In this document: positions 36,612-55,700 of the stretch, piece by piece
How the letters are laid out: the number at the start of each line of letters is the position of its first letter
Position numbering within the stretch: the stretch's first letter is position 1
DNA from: Bacillota bacterium
Lineage (GTDB): Bacteria > Armatimonadota > HRBIN16
DNA length: 64,000 nt
Assembly: GCA_023511455.1 (NCBI GenBank)
Contig: JAIMBJ010000003.1
Coordinates: forward strand, 1 to 64,000
Direction: 5' to 3'
Notes under the pieces: model-generated
Databases searched by the model: none
What the model saw: the letters and a program-made list of their open reading frames with translations, nothing else
Told to the model about the DNA's origin: nothing
Program-made: the position numbers and the translations under genes

Positions 36612-39600
36612 ATGGCATTGAGAGGCGCTAATGGTTGGGTATCGCCCGTGTTTCGGGCATGGACGCTCCTGCTGGGAGCAACTATCGTTGCAGTGCTCTT
36701 CAGCCAGTCAGTGGCTTTGGCGCAGCCGAAGCCCCGCTTCCCGCGTTTTCCCATTGTTGGCACTCCGGATCGCGTACCCGTCGACCTGAAGCGCGACTGG
36801 GATATGCTCAACGGGAGAGGTACTCCCGAACAGACCACCAATCTAACCAATTCGCCAGCGGATGAGCTGGGACCGCTGTGGTCTGGCGATGACCGGTTCA
36901 TTTACTTCTACTCGAACCGCGTCAGCGCGACCAACGGCGCTCGGGGCAGCAACTTCCGCATCTACGTCATGCGTCCCGACGGCACGGACATCCGTCAGGT
37001 GACTACCGAAGACGGCGACCAGATTGAACCCGCGCTGTCGCTCAACCAGAACCGACTGGCATACGTTGCCCGCGCCTCTGCCGCCGCGCCGTATCATCTG
37101 TTTGTGCGCAACCTCACCACAGGGGCGGTGCTGAGCCTCACCCGCGAACGAACCGACCTTCCCTTCACCGAAGTGCGGCAACCCACGTGGTCTCCCAGCG
37201 GGCTGGAGGTGGCTTTTGCCGGTAAGGTAGGGAACTTCTACCATATCTTCGTCATCAACGTGGACACCGGCGTGATTCGGCAGGTCACCGACGGAAACTG
37301 TAACGACATGGAGCCTGCCTGGTCGCCGGATGGGAACCTGATTGCCTTTACCTCCGACCGCACAGATGCAGCGGGGACAGGCTCCAAACCCACCACCGAC
37401 ATCTGGACGGTGACCGCCTACGCGCGCGACCCAGCCAGTGCGGTAGTGCGCCGGGTAACCGACTTCGCACCGGGCGGCGTCAGCAGCACCAATAAGCAGC
37501 CGTCGTGGAGCCTGCGCGAGCTGCCGCGCTTCATCACAGGCGTCAACCGACCACTCCTGTGGCTGGCATTCGCCTCCAACCGGCAGGATACCAACAACGA
37601 CGGCACACCCGACGCAGTGGGCAGCACGTTTGACATCTACTTCCTGGACGCCACCGTACTGCCGGACGGCTCCGGGTTGCAGACAGTCGAACCTACCGCG
37701 CAGGTGTATCGCATTGATGCGCGTGACCCTGCCTACAGCACAAATGAAGAGATGCCTACCTGGTCGCAGTTCACGACCGCGCTCAAGCTCGCGCACGTGA
37801 GCAACCGCACGGGCAACTGGGACATCTTTTCCACTTCCATTGTAGACGTCAACGCGCCGGAGCTCCTGAAAGCGGATGTCAATGAAAACGAGATTGTGGA
37901 AGTAATACCTCGCGTCTCGCTGCCAGGCACCACTGTGCGTTTTCGCGTGAGGGCGCGAGACCCGGAAAGTGGAGTGGCCGGAGTCTACCTGCAGATTAAA
38001 GACCCGGATAGCCGATATCAAGACGCGCAGGGCATCGAGCATAAGATTTTCCTCAACGCCGGACCTATTCCGGTTGGTGGGCAAGGTGTACGGGCGACCA
38101 TAGTGCCCTGGGAGATCGATTGTCAGCCGATTGACCCGGCAACGAACACCTATGTGACCCTGAGCAATACGTTGCCTGGCCGCCCGACCATGATAGCAAA
38201 CCGGTTTCTCGGCTATCCACCTCAGATGTATGAGCCGGGCACGGACGATTTTGCCGCCTTCAGTGGAGTCCAGAATCCGCCCAAGAGCCACTGGCTGCGC
38301 CTTTACGACGACGGTCCTGCCTCACAAGGAGGCAACGAGCCAGAGGGTGAGGTCGCTGGTGACGGTATCTACACCAATGTGTGGGCAACGCCTGCGGATA
38401 ACCCCAGCGACTGGTATGTGGATGTCATCATTTACGACCGCGCGGTGAACCCGTTCCGTCCCACCCAGCAGTCCAACTGGAAGATTTACGACAACGTCTG
38501 GGGGTTCTCCACCAGGCCGTTTAGCGCGTCCAGCAAGGTTCTGTTCGTGTCCGACTACACGCTGGGGCAGAAGTTCTTCCAGGGGCGGTTTGGGATTAAC
38601 TTTGCCCTCGACAACGTGTTCTTTACCTACTGGGGAGTGGAGTCCTGGCTGACCGGCATCGACATCAACTACTTGCCGTCCTCCGGTTTCTACTTCTCCA
38701 GCGATACCGACACCGAGCCAAAACCGGTGCGAGATACGTGGAACGCGCTCGGTCCAGGCTCCTATGGAACCCGGCAGCCCAATGGTCTACCGTGGTCTAA
38801 TCTCGCTTTCTGGTCGGTAGACCCCCGCATCAGCGACTCACAGAACTACGACATCTGGCGGATCTTGTGCCGTGGTCCGGTGCCTCAGTCTGTCTATCTT
38901 GCGTATCTTCCGCGGCGGGAACTGCAACCCAGCCCAACGAACCCGCGCACTGCAACGCAAACCGTGACCGTCGCTGACCGCTGCATCATCTGGTCTGCGC
39001 CGTACGCAGGGGATGTGTGGGCAGGCAACGGCACTATCACCGACCTGAACACCCAGCGCGACCTGACCAACTTCGTGGCGGCAGGTGGACGGCTGTATGT
39101 CACCGGACAGGATATCGGCTGGGCTTTGACGCTCAACGGGACGCAGCCAAGCGCGTTCTATACGAACGTGATGAAGGCGCGCTACATCGATGACCAGCAT
39201 CCGTCCCTGGATCCGCTGAATCGCAATACGTTGAGCGGCGGAAATACGCTGGCGAACCCCTTCGCCTGGACGACGTGGAACGAGCATAACTACTATCAAT
39301 TGACCTCATCCACCTTGCAGTACTCTCCCCCCATTTCGGGTGGTTTCCAACTGCAGCCTGGACCCGACGACAACAACCTGTATTTCAATGATGGCTGTCC
39401 CAACCAGAGGTATGTGGACGGAATTAATCCGCTTAGCCCGGCGAGGACGGAGCTGACCTTCGAAGACGGCGTGCAAGGGTTAATTTACTGGTTTGATGCT
39501 GCGAGTTCCGGCAAAGTGGTTTTTGCCAGCTTCGGACACGAAGGACTGAACCGCCAGTACTACACTCTGGACAATGTGGCTTACGGTTATAACGTGCCGC

Positions 39601-42035
39601 AGAAGCTGATGCACAATATTATCTGCTGGCTGCGCACGGGCACCATCGTAGGCACGGTGCGCGATGTGGATGGCGGCGCGCCCATCGAAGGCGCGCTGGT
39701 ACGTGCCATTTTTGGCGGCGGTAACGAGCGCACCACGGGACCGCAAATCGGCACCGCGTTCACCCGAAGGGATGGCACGTACAATATCGGTGGATTGGAC
39801 GCCTCGGTGTATGAGGTGGTAGCGGCCTTCCCGGGCTACACAGCGCAAAAGGTAACGCTGGCAGGAGTACACGGTGGCGACTTCGGCGAGACGAGCTTCC
39901 TTCTCACCAAGGCGGAGCCGGGCGTGCTGAAGGGCAGGGTGACTTATCCCGATGGCACAACCCCCATTCAGGGCGCGCTGGTGACCGCCACCGAGGTCAT
40001 CACCGGACAGCAGTTCACCGCGGTTTCCGATGCGCAGGGCAACTACGTCATCCCCCGCCTCCCCACCAGCCGAGTGGAAGACGGCGGTGGATACGATGTC
40101 ACCGCGACGAAGGAGGGCTTCTCGCCCGACCAGCCGCCGCAGCCGGTGCGCGTGAGCATCCCGCCCGCCACCGAGGTCACGCAGGACTTCCGCTTGAAAC
40201 CTGCACCCGGTAACGTGACGGGCACTGTCACCCGTTCCGACACGGGTGAGCCTATCGCGAACGCACTGGTGACGGTGCGCAGCGGCACTACCACGGTGGC
40301 ATCTGCCACCACCGACGAGAACGGACAGTACACCATTACCGGCGTGGACGGCGGAACCTATCAGGCGACCGCCTCCGCCGCGGGCTTCTCGCCGCAGACC
40401 AAGACCATCACGGTGGTGTCGAACCAGACCATCACGGAGAACTTCCAGCTCGACCCCGTGCCGCCGGGCAGTGTGTCCGGTCTGGTCATTCGCCAGGGCG
40501 ACCAGCAGCCGGAAGAGGGTGTGGAAGTGGAGGTGGTCTCCAGCAATAAGACCTACCGCACCACCACCGGCCCGGCGCAGACGGAAAACGGCTATACCTT
40601 CAACTGGCGCATCACGGGCGTGGATGCGGGCGAGTACACCGTGCGCGTGCGCAAGAGCGGCTTCACGCCAGTGCCGGAATCGCGCCAGATCACGGTGCAG
40701 TCTGAGACCGAGACCACCGGTGTGAACTTCTCGCTGAAGCCACTGCACACGTTCAGCGCAGGGCTGAGCCTCATTTCCGTGCCGTTTGACTATTCGACGC
40801 AAGACCCTGCCGACGTGCTGAACGTGCCGGTGGCAGACCGCCCGAACTTCAAACTGTTCGCGTGGTCGCTGGGACGCTACGTGCTGTATCCGAACGTGCC
40901 GGCAGACCGCGTGCGTCTGGGACGCGCCTTCTTCCTGAATGTGCCCAGGCCGCTGGTCATCACGCAGGAAGGGGCATCTGCGGATCCCGGCGTACCGTTT
41001 GAGATACAGCTGGCACCCGGCTGGAACCTGATTGGCGTGCCGTATAACTTCTCGCTGCGCTGGCTGGATATGAAGGTGCGCGACGGCGCTGGCGTCGTCA
41101 GCGTGCAGGAGGCGATTGCCAGGCAAGCGATACGCAACGGTCTGTGGACGTACGTGAGCGGACAGTATGTGCTGGCGACCGAGCTGCAGCCGTGGTTGGG
41201 CTACTGGGTGCGTGCCAACCGTGCGGTTACCCTGCTGATTGACCCTGCGGGGCGCAGCCGCAGTGCGCTCTCCCGCTCGGCGGAACCGGTGCAGACCGAC
41301 GGCTGGCTGGTGCAGATTGTCGCCAGCACGGGCAGCGTGATGGATGCCAGCAACTACTTCGGCGTGGCAAGCCGCGCCGCCGACGGGTATGATGCGCTGT
41401 TCGATGTGGAGCGACCGCCGTTCATCGACGGGCAGCCGATGGTGCAGGTGGCGTTCGAGCATCCTGAATGGGGTGCGTACGCGGGGCAGTATGCGGTGGA
41501 TGTACGCTCCCGCGCCGTCGGGCAAGTGTGGCGGTTCACGGTAACGACGAGTGTCTCCAATAGCGATGTGACCTTGCGCTTCCCGAACGTGGCGCATGTG
41601 CCTCGTGGACTGAACCTGTATCTGGTGGATGAAACCACCGGTCAGCGTCGCTCGCTGCGCACGCTGGCGGCCTACACCTTCCGCAGCGGCGAGGGAATGA
41701 CCACTCGCTCGTTCCGCATCGAGGTGGCGAACGAACAGCGTGCCAGCCTGCGCATCAGCAACGTGAGCCTGACGGGACGTGGCAGCACCCGCACCATCTC
41801 CTTCTCGCTGAGCGCGGAGGCGTCGGTGAGCGTGGTAGTGCTGCGCAACGGGCAGCCGGTGCGCGAGCTGCTGACGCAGTCCACGCGGTCGGCTGGCATC
41901 AACACGGTCACGTGGGACGGACGCGACCGCAGCGGTGTATCGCTTCCTGCAGGGGCATACACCGTGGAGATACGCGCTACCGGCACCGATGGGCAGGTTG
42001 CTCGCAGTGTGGTGCCTGTGGTGCTGACACGATAA
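36612..42035 (+). CDS. Giant secreted protein: beta-propeller, carboxypeptidase-regulatory repeats, FlgD-like C-terminus
   Basis: 1807 residues. A signal peptide (hydrophobic, about residues 17-37, ending VALAQP) is followed by a TolB-like PD40 propeller at about 75-430, with repeats such as EPAWSPDGNLIAFTSDR. A middle region of about 430-1005 is unassigned. Four carboxypeptidase-regulatory-like Ig repeats follow (about 1008-1378), each with a GTV/GRV start and GxYxI/V core. From about 1383 comes a module shared with three other proteins of the locus: GLSLISVP, PGWNLIGVPYNF, GYWVRA, SRAADGYD, then a FlgD-like domain (about 1715-1807) ending in VPVVLTR. GGAGGAAGG precedes the ATG. Probably a cell-surface protein; enzymatic function is not evident. 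Confidence 0.88.
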   Translation: MALRGANGWVSPVFRAWTLLLGATIVAVLFSQSVALAQPKPRFPRFPIVGTPDRVPVDLKRDWDMLNGRGTPEQTTNLTNSPADELGPLWSGDDRFIYFYSNRVSATNGARGSNFRIYVMRPDGTDIRQVTTEDGDQIEPALSLNQNRLAYVARASAAAPYHLFVRNLTTGAVLSLTRERTDLPFTEVRQPTWSPSGLEVAFAGKVGNFYHIFVINVDTGVIRQVTDGNCNDMEPAWSPDGNLIAFTSDRTDAAGTGSKPTTDIWTVTAYARDPASAVVRRVTDFAPGGVSSTNKQPSWSLRELPRFITGVNRPLLWLAFASNRQDTNNDGTPDAVGSTFDIYFLDATVLPDGSGLQTVEPTAQVYRIDARDPAYSTNEEMPTWSQFTTALKLAHVSNRTGNWDIFSTSIVDVNAPELLKADVNENEIVEVIPRVSLPGTTVRFRVRARDPESGVAGVYLQIKDPDSRYQDAQGIEHKIFLNAGPIPVGGQGVRATIVPWEIDCQPIDPATNTYVTLSNTLPGRPTMIANRFLGYPPQMYEPGTDDFAAFSGVQNPPKSHWLRLYDDGPASQGGNEPEGEVAGDGIYTNVWATPADNPSDWYVDVIIYDRAVNPFRPTQQSNWKIYDNVWGFSTRPFSASSKVLFVSDYTLGQKFFQGRFGINFALDNVFFTYWGVESWLTGIDINYLPSSGFYFSSDTDTEPKPVRDTWNALGPGSYGTRQPNGLPWSNLAFWSVDPRISDSQNYDIWRILCRGPVPQSVYLAYLPRRELQPSPTNPRTATQTVTVADRCIIWSAPYAGDVWAGNGTITDLNTQRDLTNFVAAGGRLYVTGQDIGWALTLNGTQPSAFYTNVMKARYIDDQHPSLDPLNRNTLSGGNTLANPFAWTTWNEHNYYQLTSSTLQYSPPISGGFQLQPGPDDNNLYFNDGCPNQRYVDGINPLSPARTELTFEDGVQGLIYWFDAASSGKVVFASFGHEGLNRQYYTLDNVAYGYNVPQKLMHNIICWLRTGTIVGTVRDVDGGAPIEGALVRAIFGGGNERTTGPQIGTAFTRRDGTYNIGGLDASVYEVVAAFPGYTAQKVTLAGVHGGDFGETSFLLTKAEPGVLKGRVTYPDGTTPIQGALVTATEVITGQQFTAVSDAQGNYVIPRLPTSRVEDGGGYDVTATKEGFSPDQPPQPVRVSIPPATEVTQDFRLKPAPGNVTGTVTRSDTGEPIANALVTVRSGTTTVASATTDENGQYTITGVDGGTYQATASAAGFSPQTKTITVVSNQTITENFQLDPVPPGSVSGLVIRQGDQQPEEGVEVEVVSSNKTYRTTTGPAQTENGYTFNWRITGVDAGEYTVRVRKSGFTPVPESRQITVQSETETTGVNFSLKPLHTFSAGLSLISVPFDYSTQDPADVLNVPVADRPNFKLFAWSLGRYVLYPNVPADRVRLGRAFFLNVPRPLVITQEGASADPGVPFEIQLAPGWNLIGVPYNFSLRWLDMKVRDGAGVVSVQEAIARQAIRNGLWTYVSGQYVLATELQPWLGYWVRANRAVTLLIDPAGRSRSALSRSAEPVQTDGWLVQIVASTGSVMDASNYFGVASRAADGYDALFDVERPPFIDGQPMVQVAFEHPEWGAYAGQYAVDVRSRAVGQVWRFTVTTSVSNSDVTLRFPNVAHVPRGLNLYLVDETTGQRRSLRTLAAYTFRSGEGMTTRSFRIEVANEQRASLRISNVSLTGRGSTRTISFSLSAEASVSVVVLRNGQPVRELLTQSTRSAGINTVTWDGRDRSGVSLPAGAYTVEIRATGTDGQVARSVVPVVLTR

Positions 42036-42110: not shown

Positions 42111-43880
42111 GTGAAACGCTTCCGGAAAGGGTTAATCGCTCGCGCGTTGAGCTGGACGCTGATCGTGGCGATGATTGTACCGGGGATCGCGTCCTTGACG
42201 CCGGTGCCTGCAGCTGCACAACAGGCGGCTCGCGGTACCGTAGCGGTGGTGGATTTCACCGTGCGTCCTGGGCTGCAGCAGGCGCTGCTGAGCCGCGCTG
42301 CTACGGATGCGGTGGCGATTGAGCTGTCGCGCGCGGGCTTTAACGTGCTTCCACGCACGCAGGTACAAAACGCGCTGCAGGAGCTCTCTCTAGAGCCGAT
42401 ACTCGACCGCCTGGGGGTCGTGAAACTGGGTAAGACCCTGGCGGTGGACTCTATCGTGTCTGGCGAAGTTGTCGCGGTCACGCTGGAAGGCTCGCCAAGA
42501 ACCGCCCGGGTCACTATCCTGGTGCGCGTGACCGACGTGGCGTCGGGTGAGGACGTCAACGGCGCCGCTGTGACCGGACAGAGCAACCCGCGAGTGGGCT
42601 ACGTTGGAGACGATGACCAGCTCATCCGGGAAGCGATCAGCAACGCCGCATTGCAGGCGGCGACCACGATTGCCTCCTATACCATACCTGAAGCCACTGT
42701 CTTGAATACCGTTGGCACCGACGAAGTGCTGCTCAACCGGGGTACCCGCAATGGTATTCAGGCTGGTATGGAGATGATAGTGTTGCGCGGTAGAGATGTT
42801 GTGGGGCGCATCCGGGTCACCCGTCCGAGCACCAGCGATGCGATTGCCAGGGTGATCAGCAGCACACTCGGCATCCAGCCCGAAGACCGGGCACGTGCCG
42901 TCTTCAAGCTTCCCACCGTGCAACTGGACAGGGGTAAGGTCAAAATCGCAGAGCCTCGTGCCAAGCCCAAATCCGCCGGTTTGAGTAACCTGGGCAAAAT
43001 CCTTGTGGTAGCTGGTCTCATTTTCGGAGCCACCCGAATCGCACAGGGAGGAAGCAGAGGCGTTGACAGCGTGAAGGCAGAGGCAGTCATCGACCCAACC
43101 GGGCCGGCAGTGAAAATCTCGTGGAAACCGAGCGTGTTTGCTCAGGCGAACCAGGACCGTATCCTGTACCACATTTATCGTGAACCCGCGGACCCCACCC
43201 GCCCGCGAGTGCCGGTGCTGTCTGCCCGCTCGAACGAAACCTACGTGATAGATACGCAGGCGGCGCGCACGGTTAACTGGGTGGACATTCCGCCGGGGCA
43301 GGAAGTGGACAGCCCTGACCTGGAAGAGGAAGAGGACATGCCAGGCGTAACCGCAGGACAGTCGTATCGCTACGCGGTAACGCTCATTTACCGATTTGTA
43401 TCGCCGCTGACCGGACAGCAAACTGGAGGGCAGCAACAGCAGCAGGAAGTCACCTACCGTGAAAGCGATAAGCAATGGACGGGCTTTGCTACGCCGCTTG
43501 CCCAACCAGTGCTGCTGCTCCCGGCCAACGGTAGTCAGGATGTCAACCTGAGCTCGGTGGACTTTGAGTTTCAAGCAGTGCCCGGAGCACAGGCTTATCG
43601 GGTGGAAGTTTCCACTGACCCCACCTTCCAGAATAAAGCGCTGTCGTTCTACACCAACGAAGTAATGCTGCCCGCTGGTTCGACGGTAACCATTCGCAAC
43701 ATCAACCTGCGCGCAAAGTTCTCGGGTGCACAGCGCCTGTACTGGCGGGCAGGGGCACGCAACATCAACGACCAGCCGGGGCCCGCTCCGTGGACTGGCG
43801 ACACCAGGGGACAGTACCGGTACATCTGGAGCGAACCCTTCTCGTTCGTGCCGATTGAGGAGCCTCCCCCTGCTCCATAA
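42111..43880 (+). CDS. CsgG-like protein with membrane segment and FN3-like C-terminus
   Basis: 589 residues with a signal-like N-terminus (residues about 8-38). Residues about 40-140 resemble the CsgG/LpoB/FlgT fold: GTVAVVDFTVRPGLQQALLSR then AVAIELSRAGFNVLPRTQV and KTLAVDSIVSGEVV. A second alpha/beta part (about 190-270) follows, then one hydrophobic helix (about 295-310, ILVVAGLIFGATRIA). The C-terminal 260 residues look like fibronectin-III or other beta-sandwich domains (VKISWKPSV, AYRVEVSTDPTFQNKA). CsgG forms the outer-membrane pore for curli subunits; whether this one makes a pore is unknown. It starts with GTG at 42111. A shorter relative is encoded at 55776 in the same locus. Confidence 0.8.
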   Translation: MKRFRKGLIARALSWTLIVAMIVPGIASLTPVPAAAQQAARGTVAVVDFTVRPGLQQALLSRAATDAVAIELSRAGFNVLPRTQVQNALQELSLEPILDRLGVVKLGKTLAVDSIVSGEVVAVTLEGSPRTARVTILVRVTDVASGEDVNGAAVTGQSNPRVGYVGDDDQLIREAISNAALQAATTIASYTIPEATVLNTVGTDEVLLNRGTRNGIQAGMEMIVLRGRDVVGRIRVTRPSTSDAIARVISSTLGIQPEDRARAVFKLPTVQLDRGKVKIAEPRAKPKSAGLSNLGKILVVAGLIFGATRIAQGGSRGVDSVKAEAVIDPTGPAVKISWKPSVFAQANQDRILYHIYREPADPTRPRVPVLSARSNETYVIDTQAARTVNWVDIPPGQEVDSPDLEEEEDMPGVTAGQSYRYAVTLIYRFVSPLTGQQTGGQQQQQEVTYRESDKQWTGFATPLAQPVLLLPANGSQDVNLSSVDFEFQAVPGAQAYRVEVSTDPTFQNKALSFYTNEVMLPAGSTVTIRNINLRAKFSGAQRLYWRAGARNINDQPGPAPWTGDTRGQYRYIWSEPFSFVPIEEPPPAP

Positions 43881-43932: not shown

Positions 43933-43985
43933 GTGAAGAAGTCACAAACGACAGGAAAAGACGACTTATGCGTCGGAGGTGTCAG

Positions 43986-46937
43986 GTGAAAATGCGCGCG
44001 CGGATGTTTGGCATTCTGGCGACGTTTGTGCTGTTAGGTGTTTTGACCGCAGGTGCTGTGCCACAACAGGCGGTGCGCCAGTTTGTGGCAGGAGAACTCA
44101 TCGTTTCACTGCAGCCCAGTACCAGCGTGGAACAGCTTCAGAGCCTGGCGCAACAGATGGATATGACGGTCAACTATCTGGGCGTGCCAGGCGTGTACCA
44201 CCTGGTGATGAAAGGTGCCAGAGAGGGCGCAGTGACCGACGAGCAAACCCTTCAGACAGTGCAAAAGCTGGAGGAATCCGGTCTCTTTGCTTACGTGGGA
44301 CCGAACAGGATTTATTATCCCCTGCAGAGAGAAGTGCGCCCGAACGACCCCCGTTACGGCGAGCAGTGGGGGCTCGAGATGATTAACATGCCGCGCGCGT
44401 GGGTGTTCCAGAAGGGCAAGGCGAATGTGGTGGTGGCTATCGTGGATAACGCATTTGAAACCACCCACCCCGACATTCGGGAGAGGTTCATCGCGGGAAG
44501 AGACGTAGCTGACCAGGACAACGACGTGAGTCCGCCGAGTCGGATGTCCCCCTGGGAGCATGGCACCGCGGCGGCAGGCATTATTGGGGCTTCCACCAAT
44601 AACAACCTAGGTGTAGCGGGTGTGGCATGGGAAGGGGTTCGTTTGTTGCCCGTGAAAGCCTCCGCAGACACGGATGGGGTAGGCTTTACCCAGGACGCGC
44701 TGATACGGGCGGTGCAATTCTGCATCGAACAACGCGTGCAAGTGGTGAATTTGAGTCTCGGAGGGATTACAGACAGTGACGTGCCGGACCTGAGAGACCC
44801 ATTTAACCAATTGATACTTTCCGGCGCTCAACAGGGCATCATCTTCGTAGCGGGAGCGGGCAACTTTTTTGCAGAAGGGAACCTACCGGTGACCCCAGCC
44901 AACTTAGCCTCGGTGAGCGATATGGTGCTGGCAGTGGCTGCGGTGGGTCCTCGCCGGGAACGCGCCGCCTACTCGCAGGCACGTCCTTATACCACAGTGG
45001 CGGCGCCGGGAGGCAACAGTGCCTCTACTGGCATCCCAAGCGACGATATTTTGACTACCACTCTGGGCGGCAGCTATGGGTATGTAATGGGCACGTCCTT
45101 TGCTGCGCCTCATGTGTCTGGGGCGGTAGCCATCCTGCTCTCCCAGGGAGTCAGGTCCACCGAGGTCAAGAGGTTGATTCAGGATACCGCTGCGGCGGAT
45201 GGACGCTCGGTACCCAACCCCGAGTTCGGTTACGGCATCCTCGACGTGTACAACGCCATTCGCCGGGTAGCCACCTCAGCGGCGATAGTCAGTCCGGCAC
45301 GTTCTGAAGTCGTTGAGACGCTGAAGCCCACGCTCGTTTTCAGCGTCACGAACACCTCCGCCGCTCTGGTAAGCATCACGATTGACGGACAGGCGGTACC
45401 GTCCACCGAGATTGCGGACAGCTATGTGGTGGACCCCAGCGGTGTGGTAGCAACGATTAAGCTGACCCGCAGGCTGGCACCGGGCACGCACACGGTGCGC
45501 GTGACTGCCCGTAACGTCAACGACCCAACCATCAGCAGCACGGATGAGGTGTCGTTCCAGGTGTCTCCGCGCGTGCTGCGGGCGGGGCGTTCGCTGATTT
45601 CGCTGCCCTATTTCCAACCGCAAACCGGTCAGCCCACACGCTCGGTCAGTGCGGAGACGATGCTGGGCACCGCATTCCAGATGTTCCGCTGGCTGCCGGA
45701 GGCAGGACGGTATGCCAAGTACAGCTCGTGGGGTGCACCGAAGGACCCCGCCGCCTCATTCGACCAGGTGAGCGAGCAGGTCGGTCCCCTGGGCGGCAGT
45801 GCGATGGCGCCGCTGGGACTGGCGTACTTCATTGACCTGCCCTCCGACACGGCAGTATTGACCGAAGGTGCTCCTGCGCCGGAAGTGCCGTTCCGCATTC
45901 CGTTGAAAAAAGGCTGGAACATGATTGGCAACCCGTTTGCCTTCAACGTGCCCTGGGTAGCCTGCGAGGTGGAAACCAGCGGCGGCGTGCGACTGAGCCT
46001 TCAGGAGGCGGCGGATAAGGAAATCATTCTGCCCCAGCTGTTCCGCTATGAAAACGGCACGTATACCTGGCAGACCGCGCCTGCAGGCGTGCTCTACAAG
46101 TGGGAAGGCTTCTGGGTGCGCGCCTTCCAAGACTGCACCTTAATTGTGATGCCTCTGCCGACAGGCGGGCGTTCCGTGAGTGCGAATGCTACCCTTCCCG
46201 GCGGCGGTGGCTGGCTCCTGCGGTTCTCGGCAGTGGCTGGCGTGGTACGTGATGGCAACACCGTCATCGGTGTGAACAGTCGGGCGGCAGACGGCTATGG
46301 ATGTGAGGATGTGCCCAAACCGCCGTCGCTCAGCCCATATGTGAGCGTCCGGATACTCAATCCCGATTGGGGAGCACGCGCGGGAGCGTACGCTCAGGAC
46401 GTGCGGCGCAGTGATAACCGCCGCCAAACATGGCAGCTGCAGGTGGAGACCGACCAGTTGAACGAGCCGGTAACCTTGCGGTGGGAAGGCATCAAGGATG
46501 TGCCCGCACGTGTGCGCCTGACGCTGGTCGATGAGGTAACCGGCAGGCGGATAGCGATGCGCACCACGGGCAGCTACACCTACCAGCCCGGTGGCGCAAG
46601 CAGCCGCAGCTTCACCGTTATCGCCGAACCGGATGTGCGTTCCGCACTGCGGGTGTCGTCGGTGCGTGTGCGGGCGACGCGTGGTAGCGGCTTCAGCATT
46701 GACTATACGCTGTCTGGCGAGGCGCAGGTACAGATTGCCATCACCGATGCTTCAGGCAAGCCGGTTGCCACTCTGATGCAGAACACCCGTTCGGCGGGCG
46801 TTCACAGTGCGACGTGGAACGGGCGCGATAGCAAGGGCATCGCGGTACCATCGGGCACCTATCTGGTGCGCGTGGAAGCCACCAGCCCGGATGGCGAGCG
46901 TGCCCGCATGGTGACACCGATAGTGATTACTCGGTAA
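43986..46937 (+). CDS. Subtilisin-family serine protease with FlgD-like C-terminal module
   Basis: A 983-residue exported S8 protease. Signal peptide (FGILATFVLLGVLTAGAVP), an inhibitor-like propeptide (about 30-115), then the catalytic domain with all triad residues visible: Asp154 in VAIVDNAF, His192 in EHGTAAAG and Ser371 in MGTSFAAPHVSG, with the oxyanion-region Asn in GAGNFF. An Ig-like stretch follows, then from residue 534 the shared module (GRSLISLP, KGWNMIGNPF, GFWVRAF, NSRAADGYG) and the FlgD-like domain ending in TPIVITR. Start is GTG at 43986, six bases after GGAGG. It could degrade external protein or process the other tailed proteins of the locus; the second idea is inference from position only. 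Confidence 0.9.
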   Translation: MKMRARMFGILATFVLLGVLTAGAVPQQAVRQFVAGELIVSLQPSTSVEQLQSLAQQMDMTVNYLGVPGVYHLVMKGAREGAVTDEQTLQTVQKLEESGLFAYVGPNRIYYPLQREVRPNDPRYGEQWGLEMINMPRAWVFQKGKANVVVAIVDNAFETTHPDIRERFIAGRDVADQDNDVSPPSRMSPWEHGTAAAGIIGASTNNNLGVAGVAWEGVRLLPVKASADTDGVGFTQDALIRAVQFCIEQRVQVVNLSLGGITDSDVPDLRDPFNQLILSGAQQGIIFVAGAGNFFAEGNLPVTPANLASVSDMVLAVAAVGPRRERAAYSQARPYTTVAAPGGNSASTGIPSDDILTTTLGGSYGYVMGTSFAAPHVSGAVAILLSQGVRSTEVKRLIQDTAAADGRSVPNPEFGYGILDVYNAIRRVATSAAIVSPARSEVVETLKPTLVFSVTNTSAALVSITIDGQAVPSTEIADSYVVDPSGVVATIKLTRRLAPGTHTVRVTARNVNDPTISSTDEVSFQVSPRVLRAGRSLISLPYFQPQTGQPTRSVSAETMLGTAFQMFRWLPEAGRYAKYSSWGAPKDPAASFDQVSEQVGPLGGSAMAPLGLAYFIDLPSDTAVLTEGAPAPEVPFRIPLKKGWNMIGNPFAFNVPWVACEVETSGGVRLSLQEAADKEIILPQLFRYENGTYTWQTAPAGVLYKWEGFWVRAFQDCTLIVMPLPTGGRSVSANATLPGGGGWLLRFSAVAGVVRDGNTVIGVNSRAADGYGCEDVPKPPSLSPYVSVRILNPDWGARAGAYAQDVRRSDNRRQTWQLQVETDQLNEPVTLRWEGIKDVPARVRLTLVDEVTGRRIAMRTTGSYTYQPGGASSRSFTVIAEPDVRSALRVSSVRVRATRGSGFSIDYTLSGEAQVQIAITDASGKPVATLMQNTRSAGVHSATWNGRDSKGIAVPSGTYLVRVEATSPDGERARMVTPIVITR

Positions 46938-46991
46938 GGCGTGAGCAAGAAAGAGATGACACACGGGGAAGATACACAGGGAGGACAGATG

Positions 46992-49622
46992 ATGAAACTC
47001 GTCGGTTTGAGCAAACGACGATGGACAGCGTGCGTGCTGATGGCAGGGCTGCTGCTGGGCGTTCTATCGGCTGTTACACAGGCGCAGCCCAGCAACGACT
47101 TTCGTGCAGTTTACATCAACAATGGCATCTTAGCCGCCGGTATCGGATTAGATGGACAGGTTGGTATCGGTGGTACGAACTACGATGCTATCGGGCGCAT
47201 CACCCTTGGCACGGCGCAGGGCGCACGCTTTACGACGGATGATGATAACCAGCCGCTGCTGTTTGCCTTCCCGTATCCCTGCGGTAATTTCGGTGTGGTG
47301 ACGGTGCGGGTGGAGTCGGCAGAGGAAACGACCGATGTCATCTGGGGAAGCGAGGACGGAGATTGGGTGGATGGTGTCGAACCCTATGCCGACCGCAACG
47401 GTCGCTCCACGATTGTGGGGCGATGGCGGCACAGTGACACCGGCATCCGAGTGGATCAAATCGTGGAGCTGGTGGGAGCTTACGCGCGCATCACGTGGAC
47501 TATCACCAACGAAGGCACGACGGCGCAGAGCGTCGGCTTGCGCCTGCTGCTAGACGAAGAAGTGGGGGGGGCGGTTGGTCTGCCGACGTCCCACTATGTC
47601 ATTGTGCCTGGTTACTTCCCCGTGCAAAATGACCTCGACCTCCAAGGTGGACAGGTGCCTTCTCTTGTAGATGCTGCTCCCAGACGCACCGCGAACGCCC
47701 CGATTCTGCGCTGGGTGTTCAAGCAGAATGGACTGACTACCCCCGACAGAGTAGTCATTGCCCAGTTTTCTCGCCTGGCAGCGAATCTTTGGGAGTTCAC
47801 GGCAATTCCCGAGTTGGAGGTCACGGATTATGCTTTTGCGTGCTATTGGAGTCCACAGTCGCTGGCACCGGGCAGGTCGCGCACTATCGTCACGTTGATT
47901 GGTTTGGGTACCAGCACCAACGACCCCACCGGGCGCTATGCGTTAGACACCGAGTCGCCGGGTGTGGTCGGTCTGGATGCCAGTAAGGCCAACCAGCTCT
48001 CGCCTGAGGAGTTTACCATCGGGGCATCCATCACCAATTACCGCTCACTCAATGCACTGGAAAACGTAACTTTCGAGAACGTGAGCTTTGCGATTTCGCT
48101 TCCACAGGGGCTGGCGCTCGCAGATGGTGAGAGTGTGAACAAGACGGTTCCCTCTGTGCTTCCCGGCGAGGTGGCAACGGTCAGCTGGCGCGTGAGACCG
48201 ACCGGGGAGAAGATGGGCGAGCTAACCTACCGGATATACTCCACCGTATCGCCGGGTAGCCTGTCGAAGAGCGTTTCACGATCACTGATCGTGCCGATGA
48301 CCACAAGGGTGGACCTGAAGACCGGCTTCCAGATGGTAAGCTTTCCGTTCGCGTTCGATAACACGGACCCTGCAGCCATTCTGGGGCTGGAGCAGGGCGA
48401 CTTTACGCTGTTGCGCTGGGACGCCACCCAGCGACGCTATGCGCTGGTCAACAGTATCCGCCCTGGTGAGGGCTACTGGCTGCGGGTCAACACCGACCAG
48501 ACCCTGACACTGAGCGGGGCAAAGATTGCGGGAGACGTCTTTGGCGGCACCTTGCGGCTGGCTCTGCCGCAGGGCTGGGTGCAAATTGGGAATCCCTATC
48601 CCTACCCGGTACCTATCGGGTTGATTCGCTTTATCGACGTCACGCAGGGCATGGCTATGACCTATGCGGAGGCGGTACAGCGTGGTCTGGTGCGCAGTGT
48701 GCTGTTCTACTACGATACCACGCCACCTGTTGGCTACAAGCCCATCTCGCTGTACAGCGATCCCTCCGCTCCGATGATGCCGGGGCGCGGCTACTGGATA
48801 TATGTGGACAGCCGCAATCTGGAGGTGATATTCCCGAACGTCATCACGCCCGGAGCGACCATTACCTTCCCCAGCCGACTGGGCGGGGCTCCCGTGCGCT
48901 GGCAGGTGCAGTTCATTGCGCAAAGCGAAGGCAAGCAGGATGCAACCGCCGTCATTGGAGCCGCCTCTCGCGCGGCAGACAGCATCGACATGTATGATAT
49001 GCCCAAGCCGCCTGCTCCGGTGGAGGAGAGCGTGCAAACCCTGTTGATTGCGCCGGATGGTCAAAGCCTACTGGCGCAGGACCTCCGCGCCGACGGCACT
49101 CGTCGGCAGGTGTGGGAGATGGTGGTCTCCGCACCTAAACCCAACAGCGCGGTGGTGCTTCGGTGGAGCGGTATGCAGAGCGTGCCTTCGTCCCTGCGGC
49201 TGAAGCTGGTGGACACGGAGGCAAAAGTCACCCGCGATCTACGAGCGACCTCGTCCTACACCTTCACCGCGGGCGCGTCAGGCAGCCGACGGTTCCAGAT
49301 AGTGGCAGAGCCTCGCGGCGTAGCTGGATTGCGCATCACTTCATTTCGAGTGACGCTCACGCGTGGTGGGGCAGTATCTATCAGCTATGCTCTGAGCGAC
49401 ACCGCCAGCGCGAAGGTGCGCATTGTGAACGCAGCGGGCAAGGTTGTACAGACCCTGCAAGCAGGAGAAGCCGCATCGCGCGGCGTAACAAATCTGACAT
49501 GGAACGGACGCGACGGCGCGGGCATCGCCGTGCCTGCCGGAGGTTATCTGGTAGAGGTCATCGCGACCTCGGAGGATGGACAGACGGCGCGCGCTGTGCA
49601 GCCGGTAGTGATAACGCGGTAA
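46992..49622 (+). CDS. Secreted protein with unknown N-terminal beta domain and FlgD-like C-terminal module
   Basis: 876 residues. A signal peptide (about 8-32, ending VTQAQP) leads to an N-terminal domain of about 330 residues that I do not recognise; its texture is beta-rich (ITWTITNEGTTAQSVGLRLLLDEEVGG), possibly a carbohydrate-binding or mutarotase-like sandwich. A CARDB/Ig-like segment follows (about 330-435). From residue 445 the shared module appears: GFQMVSFPF, QGWVQIGNPYPYP, RGYWIYV, ASRAADSIDMYD, then the FlgD-like domain ending in QPVVITR. ATG at 46992 is 7 bases from GGAGG; the ATG immediately upstream is also possible. The gap to the protease gene is 54 bases. Confidence 0.85.
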   Translation: MKLVGLSKRRWTACVLMAGLLLGVLSAVTQAQPSNDFRAVYINNGILAAGIGLDGQVGIGGTNYDAIGRITLGTAQGARFTTDDDNQPLLFAFPYPCGNFGVVTVRVESAEETTDVIWGSEDGDWVDGVEPYADRNGRSTIVGRWRHSDTGIRVDQIVELVGAYARITWTITNEGTTAQSVGLRLLLDEEVGGAVGLPTSHYVIVPGYFPVQNDLDLQGGQVPSLVDAAPRRTANAPILRWVFKQNGLTTPDRVVIAQFSRLAANLWEFTAIPELEVTDYAFACYWSPQSLAPGRSRTIVTLIGLGTSTNDPTGRYALDTESPGVVGLDASKANQLSPEEFTIGASITNYRSLNALENVTFENVSFAISLPQGLALADGESVNKTVPSVLPGEVATVSWRVRPTGEKMGELTYRIYSTVSPGSLSKSVSRSLIVPMTTRVDLKTGFQMVSFPFAFDNTDPAAILGLEQGDFTLLRWDATQRRYALVNSIRPGEGYWLRVNTDQTLTLSGAKIAGDVFGGTLRLALPQGWVQIGNPYPYPVPIGLIRFIDVTQGMAMTYAEAVQRGLVRSVLFYYDTTPPVGYKPISLYSDPSAPMMPGRGYWIYVDSRNLEVIFPNVITPGATITFPSRLGGAPVRWQVQFIAQSEGKQDATAVIGAASRAADSIDMYDMPKPPAPVEESVQTLLIAPDGQSLLAQDLRADGTRRQVWEMVVSAPKPNSAVVLRWSGMQSVPSSLRLKLVDTEAKVTRDLRATSSYTFTAGASGSRRFQIVAEPRGVAGLRITSFRVTLTRGGAVSISYALSDTASAKVRIVNAAGKVVQTLQAGEAASRGVTNLTWNGRDGAGIAVPAGGYLVEVIATSEDGQTARAVQPVVITR

Positions 49623-49670
49623 GCAAGGGGAGGATTGGCGAAGAAAATGGTTAAGGGAGAGAAAAAGACC

Positions 49671-52600
49671 ATGCGAAACGGGTGGAAGTGGCTCACTCTG
49701 GCTTTCGCCAGCCTTTGGGTGCTCACATGGGCAACGGGCACTTTGGCTGCTCCAAGCGTGGGTAGCACTTCGGTCCGTCCGCACCGTGTACTTCAGCAGG
49801 GGGCAACTGCTGACGGCTCTGTCAGTACATGGTTTGTTTTCCAGGCGGTGGTGACGCCTGGCGCGGACAACGAGGTCATCCTGGATGTGTTTGTGACCTT
49901 CAACGGGCTGCCGGGGTTGCGGCTGACGCCGGTTGGAGGTGGCGTATACCGCGCCGCGATAAGAGGAAGTCAGATCGGCATTGGTACGCACAGCCTCGGT
50001 GTGCTGGTGAACTGGACGACAGACCAGCCGCAGGACCCGGTTACTGCCGCATTTAGCCCGGATACGCTCATTGTCATTCCGCAAATTACGAATGTTCTCA
50101 GCCGAGCGCAGCTGTGGCGCGTGAAGACGCTTTTCGATGACGAAGCGCTGGCAGCATCTGACCCCTTGCAGAGAGACCCGCTTCGCCCGGACCCTCTGGA
50201 CCTGCTGGCGCCGGACGATGGCTCCAGCTCTACCCGCTATCGCTACCGGGTGCTCTACCGACATCCGTTCGGTATCCCGCCGCAGCCGATTTACAGCTCC
50301 TTTACAATGAACGCGGCTGACGGGAGCTTCACCTATCAGTTTGTATCCGATACTTTCATGCCGCCACCGCCGTACACCGCTGTTCCACACGCGGAGCCCG
50401 TGTGGGGCACGGGAAGAGTGGAAACCAATGACTTTGGCGGCGTATACATCTATATCGATGGCGAACCGCACTGGATGGTACCAGTGTACAAGCTTGACGC
50501 GGGCGGTAATCCGATACCGCTTGGTAGCCTGACGCCGGACGACTTCCGCAACGGTGTGGTGTACGAATATGTCTGGGAGCCAACGCACTACGCCAGTCAG
50601 TCTGGCGATAGCCGGTATGGCTTGCCCTACAAATACGGTCGCCCCACCGACAACGCGTTTGTGGTGGCACCGTATGGTGTGCACAGCTACGATTTTCGCG
50701 CAGGGGTAGACCACTTCCCGACGGAGGACAGTGCGCCTGCGGTCTTCCAGCCGGGTAACCCCTTGCAGGACCCATCGTATCCGCTGTTCTCGGGGGAACA
50801 TCCCCGTATCACGCCAGTGCTCAGTGGCTTCCGCTCGATGTTCGAGCCGAACTTCCTGCATCTGGGCACGGTTCGCAAAGCAACGGGCGACACGACCGTC
50901 TTCTGGAACCCGGACCAGCAGCTGCCTAACGGACCGTTCCATCCGCAGCCCGGTCCTACCGCTCCGGGCACGCAGTCCTTCCCGGTGGCGATGGGTACGG
51001 AAGACACGGTGTTCGAATTCCGTATCCGCTACCAGGGCGACCGCGACCCGGCATACATCAAGGTCTTTATCAGCAACGACTTCACCGGCGAGAGCTATCC
51101 CCTCCATCTGACCATGCAACCGCTGGACCCGGCGCAGACCAATCCGGGTGTCTACGTGGCACGCACTCGCCTGCCGCGAGGACCGCACACCTACTACTTT
51201 GAGGCAAACGACGGTACCCGCACGGTGCGGTTCCCCGTCCGTCCTCTGGATGACCCCGTACTGCCTGCCGGTGGTATCCACACGAAGGGACGCAACTTCT
51301 TCATGGGACCCTTCGTCAATACCAAACCGATACTGTCTGACTACTCGGTCACGCCGGCAACGGGCAAGCAGGGAACCAACTTTGTCTTCCGCGTGAAGTA
51401 CACCGACCCGAATAACCAGCGTCCGGTGCGCGCACGGCTGCACCTGCAGCTGAGCGATGACCCTGCGCCGCGCGGGACGTGGGTCACGGTGAACATGGTG
51501 CGCGAGAGCCCGGATAGCGTGCCGTATTCGGATGGGGTGGTGTATAAGTTTGATACCTCCTCCGACCCGAGCATCGTCCTGCAGCCGGGCACGCGACACT
51601 ACTACTTCGAGTTTGTGGACAACTGGGGTGACCCGTACGACCCCAACACCCTGCTGGCAGGCGAGACTACGCTGCTGCCTGCCAACGCTACCACCGACCC
51701 GGATGATGACGCCAATAAAGTGGTGGTGGAAAACACCATCGCCGGACCGATTGTCGTAGAGAACAAACCGCCATATCTGGTGAAGCCTGATACCGTAGTC
51801 GGCGACGTGAACTGGGCGCCAGGCGCAGCGGATGTGGGTGGTGACTATCTCGCGTCGGATACCTTCGAGAACACGGCGACGTCGTTCACCTTCCGCACGA
51901 AGTATGTAGACAAGAACAACGACGCTCCCACCTTCATCAAGGTGCAGTACCGCAACACCGCCGACCCGGGCAGCGTGTTTGAGCGTGACTTGAGCATTGC
52001 GCCAGGCAGCGGCACGCTCTACTCGGACGGCGTGGTGTATCAGGTGACCGGTATTAAACTGCCCATCGGTCAGACCGAGTTCCGCTTCACCACCTCCGAC
52101 GGTACGGTGGTGACTACAACGGGCTGGCAGACCGGTCCCAACGTGGTGGCGAACACCGCGCCGGTACTGGAAGAGCCAGCCGGTGGAACGGTGACACCCA
52201 CCAGCGGCGACCAGGGCACGCTCTACACCTTCCGTGTCGTTTACAAGGACGCTGAAGGACAGGCGCCTGTCGCCACGAACGGTGGCTTCATCCGTGTGTG
52301 GATCGATGGTACAGAGTACGACATGGTACCCGGCGGCGCACCCGACTACGTCAACGGTACCGTGTTTGAATACGCAACGACGCTTGGTGCTGAACCTGCT
52401 GTCCATCAGTATCACTTTGTAGCATCCGACGGTGGCAACACGGTTCGCCTGCCGACGACGGGCGAGTTCAGCGGACCCAGCGTGAACGACTTCAACAAGC
52501 TGTCTAATCCGCGCGTGACCATCACGCCTGCGGGCAACAGCGAACCGCGCGGACGCAGCGATGCGGCATACGCGTTCCAGATTACCTTCACCAACCCCAA

Positions 52601-55600
52601 CGGCACACCGCCGGTGGGCAACATCGAGGTGCTGGTGGACGGCACGCCTTACGTGCTGAACGAGACTATTCCCGCCAGCCCCACGCCAGCGGACTTCCGC
52701 AACGGCGTGACCTACAGCCTGACGCTAAACGCACCGGTAGCGCCCATGACGCCCGGGCAGCACCAGTTCCAGTTCCGGTTCCAGAACGGTGCCTTCTCAA
52801 CTCAGCTGCAGAGCGTCGCGGTGAACCATAAGCCGGTGCTTTCGGATAACAAGGTGACCACCGATGGCAGCACGGCGACCACGCAGGTGTCTAAGGTGGC
52901 GCGCCCCATCTTCCTCGTTACTTACCGGGATGCCGACAATGACGCGCCGAAGTTCGTCAAGCTGTTTATCGACGGAGACGTGACGGGCGTGAATATGACC
53001 TCCACTGGCGGTACGAACTATCGGGCTGGTGTGGTATACCGGTATCAGTCCCCGGCGCCGCTTGCCATCGGCGACCATACCTACCGCATCGCGGCACAGG
53101 ATGCCGACCCCTTCGCGGAAGATGCGGCGGAGGTCAACGGCGCGTTTGAGGTGCTGAACCTGAAACCGGTGCTGAGCAACGGTACGGTGACGCCCGCTAC
53201 CGGCTCGCACAACGCGGCGTTCACTTATAGCGTGAAGTACACCGACGGCGACGGCGATGCCCCCGCCTTCGTGCGAGTACGCATCCTGAAGCCAGACAGC
53301 ACCGAGCAGGTGCTGAACCTGACCGGTTCGGGTGATTATGCGCAGGGCGTGACCTTCAGCGGAACCATTCCGGCGAACTCACGCCTGCTCACAGGTAATT
53401 ATCAGTTCCGGTTTGAGGCGAACGACGGCACAGTAGACGCCGACCCGTTGCTGGGCGATGGACCAACGGTGACCAACGCCAGTCCTGTGTTGAGCAACGG
53501 TACGGTTGTTCCAGTTCGGGAGTCGGGACGTGCCGCGTTCCAGTATTCGGTGACCTATACTGATGCGGATGGCGATGCTCCAGAGTTCGTGCGGGTGGTG
53601 GTCATTCAACCGGATAATACCGAGCGCACCCTGGACATGACTGGCAGTGGCACCGACTACACGAGCGGTGTTATCTACACGGCACAGGTGCCGGCGAACT
53701 CCAACCTCGCTCCTGGCAACTACGGCTTCCGGTTTGAAGCCAGGGACGACTATGGTGCGGACGCTGACCCGCTCACTGGCACGGGACCGCAGGTGAACAA
53801 CCCGCCGCAGCTGGTCAACCCGAGGGTCACCCCGCTGTCGGGCAAGCTCAGCACGGAGTTCGTGTACGAGGTCACGTACAAGGATGCCGATGGCGACGCA
53901 CCCAGAGCGTTCAGCGGCACACCCGGCGGCGAGGTGCAGATCAATATCGACGGTACCTGGTACGCCATGACGAAGGTCGGTGCGGGTACCGACTACAGGG
54001 CAGGTGTAACCTACCAGCTCAAGCGGCGCCTGAGCGAAGGCGGACACACCTTCCAGTTCCGCGCTCAGGACCAGTACGATGCCGTGGAGACGGCAGTCCT
54101 GAGTGGTCCGACCGTGAACAAAGCGACCATCACGCTCACTGCGCCCAGCGGGACCGCTGCCCTCGGTGAGACCGTCACACTGAGCGGACAGCTCACGCTG
54201 TCGGGCAGTGCAACGGTGAACGCCTCGGTGCAGGTGGTGATTTCCCCGCCGGTGGGTGCGGGTGAGGTGAAGAACGTGAATACCGCTTCGGACGGCTCGT
54301 TCTCGGTGCAGTTCACGCCGGGCACCACCGGCACGTGGTCTGCCTATGCCTCGTGGGCAGGCAACGAGGAATACGACGGTGTGAACAGCGCACCGGTGAC
54401 CATACAGGTGCAGGGCGCAACCTTCACCATCCAGCCCGGTATCAGCATGATTTCCATCCCGCTGATACCGCCATCCAGCGACCCCGACTTCCTGTTCGGG
54501 TTCGACACTCGCACGATTAACCTGGTCCGCTGGCAACCTCTGGAGAACCGCTACGTCAGCGGCGGCAGTGTGGCAGCGCAGGCGGGTGCTGGTTACTGGG
54601 TGCGTGCAATCAGCGCAGTGAACGTATCGCCTGTGGGCACGCTGGCAGACCAGAACCAGCCGTTCTCCATCCAGCTGATACAGGGCTGGAACATGATAGG
54701 CTCGGTCTATCTGCAGCCGACCCTGCTGGGTGCGGCGCAGGTGCGCGTGGCTGGTCAGGTGATGACCCTTGCTGAGGCGGCAAAGAGGGGTCTGGTTCGC
54801 GACTACGCATGGCGTTACGACCCGGTCGCCCGCGCCTACAGGATAGTGAGTGCGGGTGAGAACCTGCAGCCCTTCGTGGGATACTGGATACGCGCCCTGG
54901 TCGATGCTGAGCTCATCCTGAACCCGCCGGGAAGCCGCTCCGCAGGTGGTATGCAGATTAGCCGCTCGGCGAAGATGAGCGAAGCCGACTGGATGGTGCA
55001 ACTAGTGGCTCGCGCTGGCGAGGCGACGGACTCCGACAACTACATCGGTGTGTCGGGTGACAGCCTGCAGGTGGAGAAGCCTGCGCCGCTGGAGAACTAC
55101 GTGCATGTGCAGTTGCTGTCGCCGGAGAGCAATACTCCGCTGGCAGTAGACGTGCGACGCAGCGCGGGCGCGAAGCAAGTATACACCTTTGAGGTGCTTA
55201 CCGACATGCCAAACACGCCAGTGACCCTCTCGTGGCCCAATCTGGCGAAGATTAGCCGCAACGTCGAGATGGTGCTGGTGGATGTAGACGCCAACGTGCG
55301 CCGCGTGATGACCAATCTACCGTCCTACACCTACAACAGCGGTGCCAACGGCGGCACTCGCCGTTTCCAGATTATCGTGCAGCCTCGAGTGCGCACGGCA
55401 GCGATGATCAGCAACGTGCGCGTGGCGCAGACCCGTGCAGCGGGAAGCACGCGGGTGCAGATTAGCTACGCGCTGAATACGGAAGCATCGGTGGCGGTGC
55501 AGATTACCGACGCTGCCGGCAAGCCGATACGCGCTTTGCAGGCTGGTCAGGCTGGACGCGGCGTGAACAACATCACGTGGGACGGTCGCAATAGCGCGGG

Positions 55601-55700
55601 CGTGGCGGTTCCGGCTGGTGCCTACATGGTGAGGATAACCGCTACCACCGAGGATGGTCAGACCGCCAGCGTGGTTCAGCCGATTGTTCTGACGAGGTAA
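49671..55700 (+). CDS. Giant cadherin-like repeat protein with FlgD-like C-terminal module
   Basis: 2009 residues, the largest protein in the window. After a signal peptide (WLTLAFASLWVLTWATGTLAAP) come about 450 unassigned residues, then seven or eight repeats of about 90-110 residues between roughly 540 and 1485. Each repeat opens P-x-L-x-(N/D)-x-x-V-T-P and carries a Y-x-D-x-(D/N)-x-D-A-P acidic box, for example YTDADGDAPEFVRV, suggesting calcium-binding adhesion repeats. An Ig-like domain follows (about 1488-1588). The shared module starts at 1591 (GISMISIP, QGWNMIGSV, GYWIRA) and ends in the FlgD-like domain with QPIVLTR. Start at 49671 is chosen because it gives the cleanest signal peptide. 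Likely a long stalk or adhesin on the cell surface. Confidence 0.87.
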   Translation: MRNGWKWLTLAFASLWVLTWATGTLAAPSVGSTSVRPHRVLQQGATADGSVSTWFVFQAVVTPGADNEVILDVFVTFNGLPGLRLTPVGGGVYRAAIRGSQIGIGTHSLGVLVNWTTDQPQDPVTAAFSPDTLIVIPQITNVLSRAQLWRVKTLFDDEALAASDPLQRDPLRPDPLDLLAPDDGSSSTRYRYRVLYRHPFGIPPQPIYSSFTMNAADGSFTYQFVSDTFMPPPPYTAVPHAEPVWGTGRVETNDFGGVYIYIDGEPHWMVPVYKLDAGGNPIPLGSLTPDDFRNGVVYEYVWEPTHYASQSGDSRYGLPYKYGRPTDNAFVVAPYGVHSYDFRAGVDHFPTEDSAPAVFQPGNPLQDPSYPLFSGEHPRITPVLSGFRSMFEPNFLHLGTVRKATGDTTVFWNPDQQLPNGPFHPQPGPTAPGTQSFPVAMGTEDTVFEFRIRYQGDRDPAYIKVFISNDFTGESYPLHLTMQPLDPAQTNPGVYVARTRLPRGPHTYYFEANDGTRTVRFPVRPLDDPVLPAGGIHTKGRNFFMGPFVNTKPILSDYSVTPATGKQGTNFVFRVKYTDPNNQRPVRARLHLQLSDDPAPRGTWVTVNMVRESPDSVPYSDGVVYKFDTSSDPSIVLQPGTRHYYFEFVDNWGDPYDPNTLLAGETTLLPANATTDPDDDANKVVVENTIAGPIVVENKPPYLVKPDTVVGDVNWAPGAADVGGDYLASDTFENTATSFTFRTKYVDKNNDAPTFIKVQYRNTADPGSVFERDLSIAPGSGTLYSDGVVYQVTGIKLPIGQTEFRFTTSDGTVVTTTGWQTGPNVVANTAPVLEEPAGGTVTPTSGDQGTLYTFRVVYKDAEGQAPVATNGGFIRVWIDGTEYDMVPGGAPDYVNGTVFEYATTLGAEPAVHQYHFVASDGGNTVRLPTTGEFSGPSVNDFNKLSNPRVTITPAGNSEPRGRSDAAYAFQITFTNPNGTPPVGNIEVLVDGTPYVLNETIPASPTPADFRNGVTYSLTLNAPVAPMTPGQHQFQFRFQNGAFSTQLQSVAVNHKPVLSDNKVTTDGSTATTQVSKVARPIFLVTYRDADNDAPKFVKLFIDGDVTGVNMTSTGGTNYRAGVVYRYQSPAPLAIGDHTYRIAAQDADPFAEDAAEVNGAFEVLNLKPVLSNGTVTPATGSHNAAFTYSVKYTDGDGDAPAFVRVRILKPDSTEQVLNLTGSGDYAQGVTFSGTIPANSRLLTGNYQFRFEANDGTVDADPLLGDGPTVTNASPVLSNGTVVPVRESGRAAFQYSVTYTDADGDAPEFVRVVVIQPDNTERTLDMTGSGTDYTSGVIYTAQVPANSNLAPGNYGFRFEARDDYGADADPLTGTGPQVNNPPQLVNPRVTPLSGKLSTEFVYEVTYKDADGDAPRAFSGTPGGEVQINIDGTWYAMTKVGAGTDYRAGVTYQLKRRLSEGGHTFQFRAQDQYDAVETAVLSGPTVNKATITLTAPSGTAALGETVTLSGQLTLSGSATVNASVQVVISPPVGAGEVKNVNTASDGSFSVQFTPGTTGTWSAYASWAGNEEYDGVNSAPVTIQVQGATFTIQPGISMISIPLIPPSSDPDFLFGFDTRTINLVRWQPLENRYVSGGSVAAQAGAGYWVRAISAVNVSPVGTLADQNQPFSIQLIQGWNMIGSVYLQPTLLGAAQVRVAGQVMTLAEAAKRGLVRDYAWRYDPVARAYRIVSAGENLQPFVGYWIRALVDAELILNPPGSRSAGGMQISRSAKMSEADWMVQLVARAGEATDSDNYIGVSGDSLQVEKPAPLENYVHVQLLSPESNTPLAVDVRRSAGAKQVYTFEVLTDMPNTPVTLSWPNLAKISRNVEMVLVDVDANVRRVMTNLPSYTYNSGANGGTRRFQIIVQPRVRTAAMISNVRVAQTRAAGSTRVQISYALNTEASVAVQITDAAGKPIRALQAGQAGRGVNNITWDGRNSAGVAVPAGAYMVRITATTEDGQTASVVQPIVLTR

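Follow-up and report, generated by a model that had tools for sequence, protein, structure and literature searches.

The closest described counterpart of the proteins analyzed here is the type 9 secretion system (T9SS), which three publications (PMC4793230, PMC11205867, PMC12421860) describe as confined to the Bacteroidetes or to the Fibrobacteres-Chlorobi-Bacteroidetes group. Export by this route is lost without the last few residues of the substrate, and the signal lies inside the last 22 residues, according to PMC4804311. The C-terminal domains (CTDs) of the substrates contain an almost invariant lysine near the C terminus that touches PorV, and the barrel of the channel, SprA, consists of 36 strands, as stated in PMC10994853. 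Judging by the titles and abstract openings of the papers listed, none describes a T9SS-like system in Armatimonadota.

We analyzed a 64,000-nucleotide stretch of an Armatimonadota genome (contig JAIMBJ010000003.1, here called the window), in which four tandem genes, all on the + strand, code for large proteins with very similar C termini. Protein 1 (36612-42035, 1,807 amino acids [aa]) combines a TolB-like propeller with CarboxypepD_reg repeats and ends in VPVVLTR, protein 2 (43968-46937, 989 aa) is a subtilase ending in TPIVITR, protein 3 (46941-49622, 893 aa) matches no family along most of its sequence and ends in QPVVITR, and protein 4 (49635-55700, 2,021 aa) is a repeat protein ending in QPIVLTR. 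The four ends reported by the initial annotation are all present at the stop codons of + strand ORFs, with back-translated matches to PVVLTR, PIVITR, PVVITR, and PIVLTR plus the stop at 42015-42035, 46917-46937, 49602-49622, and 55680-55700, respectively, all on that strand. Searched as a back-translated pattern, P-[IV]-V-x-T-R-stop matches the window four times; 100 dinucleotide shuffles gave no match. The FlgD-like fold described ahead of each end was confirmed as well, as Pfam FlgD_ig scores above its cutoff in all four proteins. The ends are indeed nearly identical, but the likeness is not confined to them. All-against-all BLASTP aligned the four C-terminal regions pairwise over 388 to 515 columns with 31.8 to 37.6% identity, delimiting a common module of about 430 aa that closes with the FlgD-like domain and starts at about 40680, 45576, 48315, and 54429 in proteins 1 to 4, while the N-terminal parts differ. 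The interval first singled out, 41740-42035, covers only the last domain of protein 1 (about 41736-42032). As the homologous C-terminal stretch is found in all four proteins, the identical ends reflect, first of all, common descent.

Other genes of this region include two that code for exported proteins with weak MreC-like or LpoB-like matches (42111-43880 and 55776-56549, both +) and flank the last three tailed genes; their counterparts are arranged likewise in other members of the genus, as far as the fetched stretches extend. A rhomboid protease gene with a zinc-finger N terminus (60739-61842, +) lies near the tailed cluster.

A search of the whole genome (3.85 Mb, 73 contigs) with a profile of the tail identified the four window proteins and one protein on each of contigs C6, C15, C29, and C34 as strong matches, eight in all, plus a weak ninth (E = 0.006) in another protein. 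All eight tailed proteins end in P-x-x-x-T-R directly at the stop codon and contain FlgD_ig over the Pfam cutoff. A signal-peptide-like hydrophobic N terminus is present in seven; the C34 protein, as read, has none, and its start may be misplaced. Among the other ORFs of at least 200 aa in the stretches of this genome that were read, Arg is the last residue in 20 of 104 and Thr-Arg in 2 of 104. A small lipoprotein-like ORF containing a glycine run comes after each of the tailed genes on C6 and C34 (L033:5288-5665 and L036:7301-7732, both on the - strand). A lipoprotein adjacent to the tailed gene on C15 also ends in LTR, which we regard as a coincidence; its counterparts elsewhere end differently.

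Within the genus (10 genomes), the 74 tails read all lie at the stop codon, and all have a terminal Arg and Pro at position -6, with Thr at -2 in 64. In the rest of the phylum (76 tails from 19 genomes), the terminal Arg is kept in 68 cases, while Thr at -2 and Pro at -6 are found in only 16 and 29. Matches numbered 86 in the genus and 142 elsewhere, and the tails read are those that scored better, apart from a few of the 76 that came from fetched stretches outside the best-match list, and the counts leave out two contig-edge fragments (G008:C288 and G031:C91) and one further match (G021:C1:838103). In 38 tails, the last residues lie outside the profile alignment, which rules out selection for Arg by the profile; the terminal residue is still Arg in 30 of them, compared with an Arg share of 9% among their remaining residues. 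As the tails are relatives, no simple probability can be put on the Arg counts.

The eight-residue motif itself is therefore ruled out as the signal, since it is lost outside the genus, where the end residues other than Arg drift and the terminal Arg outlasts nearly all of its neighbors. Only this Arg and the FlgD-like fold persist throughout the phylum, which suggests that any signal would comprise the entire domain and a basic last residue, not VxPxVxTR. The initial annotation had also considered that the motif could simply be the last strand of any FlgD-like domain, with no enrichment at protein ends. The end is indeed the last strand of the FlgD-like domain, but this domain lies no more than 10 residues from the stop in all 150 tails read and was never met at an internal location.

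The last 440 residues of protein 3 were modeled with AlphaFold (16-sequence alignment; mean pLDDT 88.3, pTM 0.72) as several beta domains, of which residues 429-438 form the closing strand. The nearest solved structures by sequence are FlgD (E = 1.6e-11), PorU (E = 1.1e-4), and, weakly, the Porphyromonas chain 5m11 (0.046), which we take to be PorZ. In structural comparisons, the PorU CTD fits the last tail domain over 94 residues (Z = 11.6, 2.3 Å), and the highest-ranking structure, Vpr (Z = 13.5, 128 residues, 5.8 Å), covers more than this last domain. Ig-like domains of glycosidases reach Z = 11.3, near the score of the PorU CTD, and as they fit almost equally, the fold alone cannot decide the identity of the tail. 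Against eight CTDs from genomes with SprA-family proteins, the tail profile aligns with a probability of 98.8 over 67 columns, and we take the tail to be homologous to T9SS type A CTDs. Lys or Arg is also the last residue in 18 of 21 CTDs from SprA-bearing genomes, a sample reached from 30 loci by dropping one without a pick, three in the wrong frame, one from an Armatimonadota genome, and four taken as coming from two genomes without SprA over the cutoff.

Type A CTDs (TIGR04183) and the tails thus share the FlgD/Ig-like beta-sandwich at the extreme C terminus of many unrelated exported proteins, the profile homology, and the frequent Lys or Arg ends. The tails differ in remaining below the TIGR04183 cutoff (the best of the eight own proteins reaches 22.6 bits versus 23), in ending nearly always in Arg, and in following a conserved module made up of several beta domains. 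The near-terminal lysine is absent too, as the genus has Pro at -6 and no Lys/Arg majority at positions -3 to -7, and in the phylum Lys or Arg occupies -7 in 42% of tails at most. The FlgD hook cap is the closest solved relative by sequence and shares the Pfam FlgD_ig domain, but here the domain closes large exported proteins and carries the terminal Arg, and the eight proteins match the full FlgD equivalog model only partially, far below the FlgD cutoffs. The tail probably works like a type 9 CTD.

A candidate reader of the tail was found among the barrel proteins of the phylum. The SprA model TIGR04189 gives short matches below its cutoff in 27 of 41 genomes, including the one under study, and none of the 41 passes the cutoff, which four of eight positive control genomes do. 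The best match in the own genome is a 997-aa protein on contig C36, belonging to a barrel family of about 970 aa. A search with an alignment of five of these barrels yielded 36 loci in named genomes, which in many cases bear the label Armatimonadetes, Armatimonadota, Zipacnadia, or WS1. The loci closest to the own barrel have best-segment identities of 81 to 93% (79% in one case) and include the isolates RSWS16 and Ch118, of which Ch118 is labelled Chthonomonadia. With hhalign, 25 barrels align to five SprA-family proteins of 1,766 to 1,960 aa (four from genomes that pass the SprA cutoff and one from a genome that fails it) with a probability of 99.0 over 341 columns, placing barrel columns 117-462, the N-terminal third, onto SprA columns 123-649.

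A template-free model of the barrel, of middling confidence (pLDDT 69.1, pTM 0.50), has 36 strands when at least 8 residues are required per strand, a threshold of our own choice, and 33 when at least 9 are required. In a structural second look, SprA 8gl6 came first (Z = 19.3, 6.9 Å, 615 residues, model 113-971 on chain 133-2401), followed by 6h3i (Z = 18.5, 647 residues) and MtrB (Z = 18.2, 452 residues, 11.1 Å); MtrB is at most 0.3 Z from one SprA row and within about 1 Z of the best. Foldseek gave another order, with MtrB and SlpA at the head and SprA fourth. Compared with SprA/Sov, then, the barrel shares the N-terminal homology, the 36 strands, and the best structural match of the second look, but it is about half as long (about 970 versus about 1,800 to 2,400 aa), falls below the cutoff, and occurs in a genus in which no PorV partner turned up. 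We regard it as homologous to part of the T9SS channel SprA and as the likeliest reader of the tails.

Two other kinds of barrel were noted. Directly after the tailed genes and a small CsgG/LpoB-like gene, the window codes for a 647-aa protein (56565-58508, +) with an N-terminal Big_1/Invasin_D3 domain and what look like an OstA-type part and a C-terminal barrel. It was rejected as the reader, with an hhalign probability of 0.8 against the SprA-like family and no PDB relative of note. Family-related barrels of about 1,125 aa are also found in metagenome-assembled genomes of other or unplaced phyla (UBP15, ADurb.Bin236; loci L191, L192, and L193), with no tail match in the flanks.

Barrel and tail co-occur closely in 121 genomes of the phylum. 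With E values of at most 1e-50 for the barrel and 1e-14 for the tail, and tallying by eye, we counted 80 genomes with both, 37 with neither, and 4 discordant (Fisher P = 3e-26). Two of the latter have a strong tail without a strong barrel (G119, and G064, which has a barrel fragment close to the end of a contig), and two have a strong barrel without a strong tail (G074 and G099, both with weaker tails). At the family level, the split is 23 versus 11 with no exception in the tally (P = 3.5e-9). Because no family breaks this pattern, the co-occurrence could go back to a single deep clade.

Gene adjacency is support independent of the co-occurrence. In four other families of the phylum, the barrel counterpart adjoins a tailed gene. 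Among the loci outside the genus (L170 to L190) with at least 3.9 kb downstream of the barrel, a tailed gene, the counterpart of the one on the own contig C15, follows on the same strand in 12 of 13, the exception being L175; L188, with less sequence, holds a 13th tail. The last residue is Arg in 12 of these 13 tails, of which the L182 tail, ending in SAP, was left out of alignment A5. In the genus itself, the adjacency was seen in none of three informative loci (L167 to L169), and in the own genome the cassette is split over C36 and C15. The common order is a DUF5693 gene, a CsaB-type pyruvyl transferase, the barrel, a CarboxypepD lipoprotein, the tailed protein, and a second CarboxypepD lipoprotein; some loci lack one or more of these genes. 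The barrel-linked tailed protein (L035:6868-9891, -; L160, L161, L162, and L170 to L190) forms a phylum-wide family in which a zincin-like motif was recognized by eye and Pfam matches only the tail.

The initial annotation had proposed a sorting signal read by a machine. In the exact eight-residue end we see inheritance at the level of the genus, but a machine-read signal is still the best-supported reading, because homology, co-occurrence, and gene order all connect a candidate barrel with the tails. The same gene order could also indicate docking instead of transport, with the barrel as an S-layer-type or polysaccharide-linked surface protein on which the tail docks secreted proteins that have passed the outer membrane in some other way. 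S-layer anchoring is a known role of CsaB (its model carries the name S_layer_CsaB), and the CsaB-type and DUF5693 genes precede the barrel in many loci; high in the Foldseek list, moreover, are Deinococcus SlpA and the S-layer deinoxanthin-binding complex. Nevertheless, the SprA homology of the N-terminal third, the 36 predicted strands, and SprA as the best match of the second look point to a translocon type of barrel, and the barrels scanned yielded no SLH domain, so we consider docking unlikely.

It is improbable, in our judgment, that the FlgD-like domain is an ordinary structural element that merely closes large proteins, with the Arg aiding folding and no reader involved. Shared ends by descent are what a module homologous over its entire length would give, and generic Ig-like domains do match the tail fold. 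Against this reading stand a terminal Arg that outlives nearly all neighboring end residues across the phylum, a domain that is never internal in 150 tails, and the barrel linkage and co-occurrence. Tail cleavage of the LPXTG, PEP-CTERM, or GlyGly-CTERM kind, by a rhomboid-type enzyme or a membrane sortase, is very improbable in spite of the rhomboid gene near the window cluster, as the eight tails have no C-terminal hydrophobic, transmembrane helix (17-residue hydropathy maxima of 0.58 to 1.45 in the last 60 residues) and none of these signals is among the NCBIfam matches of the tailed proteins.

The usual partners of a type 9 channel were looked for as well. PorV has no match in any of the 10 genus genomes and only weak ones, none over the cutoff, in 16 of 41 genomes. 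PorU is over the cutoff in none of the 41, and the genus matches cover only about positions 870 to 1094 of the 1,095-position model; the CTD of PorU fits the last tail domain, but the genus shows no C25 peptidase part. Four other Armatimonadota genomes (G010, G012, G028, and G038) do have long matches to PorU-like C25 peptidases, below the cutoff. For GldL, the 41 genomes gave one weak match (G022) and none in the genus, and for GldM they gave no match, with the control genomes equally silent for both. As the genus yielded neither PorV nor the PorU peptidase, and GldL and GldM are unmatched there, we call the system T9SS-like and do not class it as a member of the T9SS. The tail is likely to be retained uncleaved, given the lack of a PorU-type peptidase among the genus matches.

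We therefore favor, with moderate confidence, a divergent and compact type-9-like route of export or display, in which the tails are T9SS type A-like sorting domains. The tailed proteins would be exported by Sec; once they are in the periplasm, the compact SprA-type outer membrane barrel would recognize their folded FlgD-like domain and its terminal Arg and would move them to the cell surface or display them on it. A single barrel, encoded on another contig, would serve all eight tailed proteins of this genome. Against this reading we count the separation of barrel and tail genes in the genus, the subcutoff scores of SprA, PorV, and PorU, the lack of a GldL or GldM match in the genus, the generic Ig-like fit, the closeness of MtrB, the middling barrel model, the one-clade option, and the missing near-terminal lysine.

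A wider proposal, which we put forward tentatively and with some doubt, is that Armatimonadota largely possess a stand-alone, minimal type-9-like route consisting of one half-length, 36-strand SprA-type barrel, linked to csaB/DUF5693 surface polysaccharide genes and lipoproteins, which exports or displays proteins via the Arg-ended FlgD-like tail without PorV, PorU, and perhaps GldLM; such a route could be an ancestral or a minimal T9SS. If true, this would place a half-size SprA-type channel and tailed substrates of its own in a distant phylum, as a minimal system for learning what the translocon needs, and the terminal Arg allows a one-residue test. It would also bear on whether the motor and the sortase are later additions and on how uncultured Armatimonadota display proteases and adhesin-like proteins on their surface.
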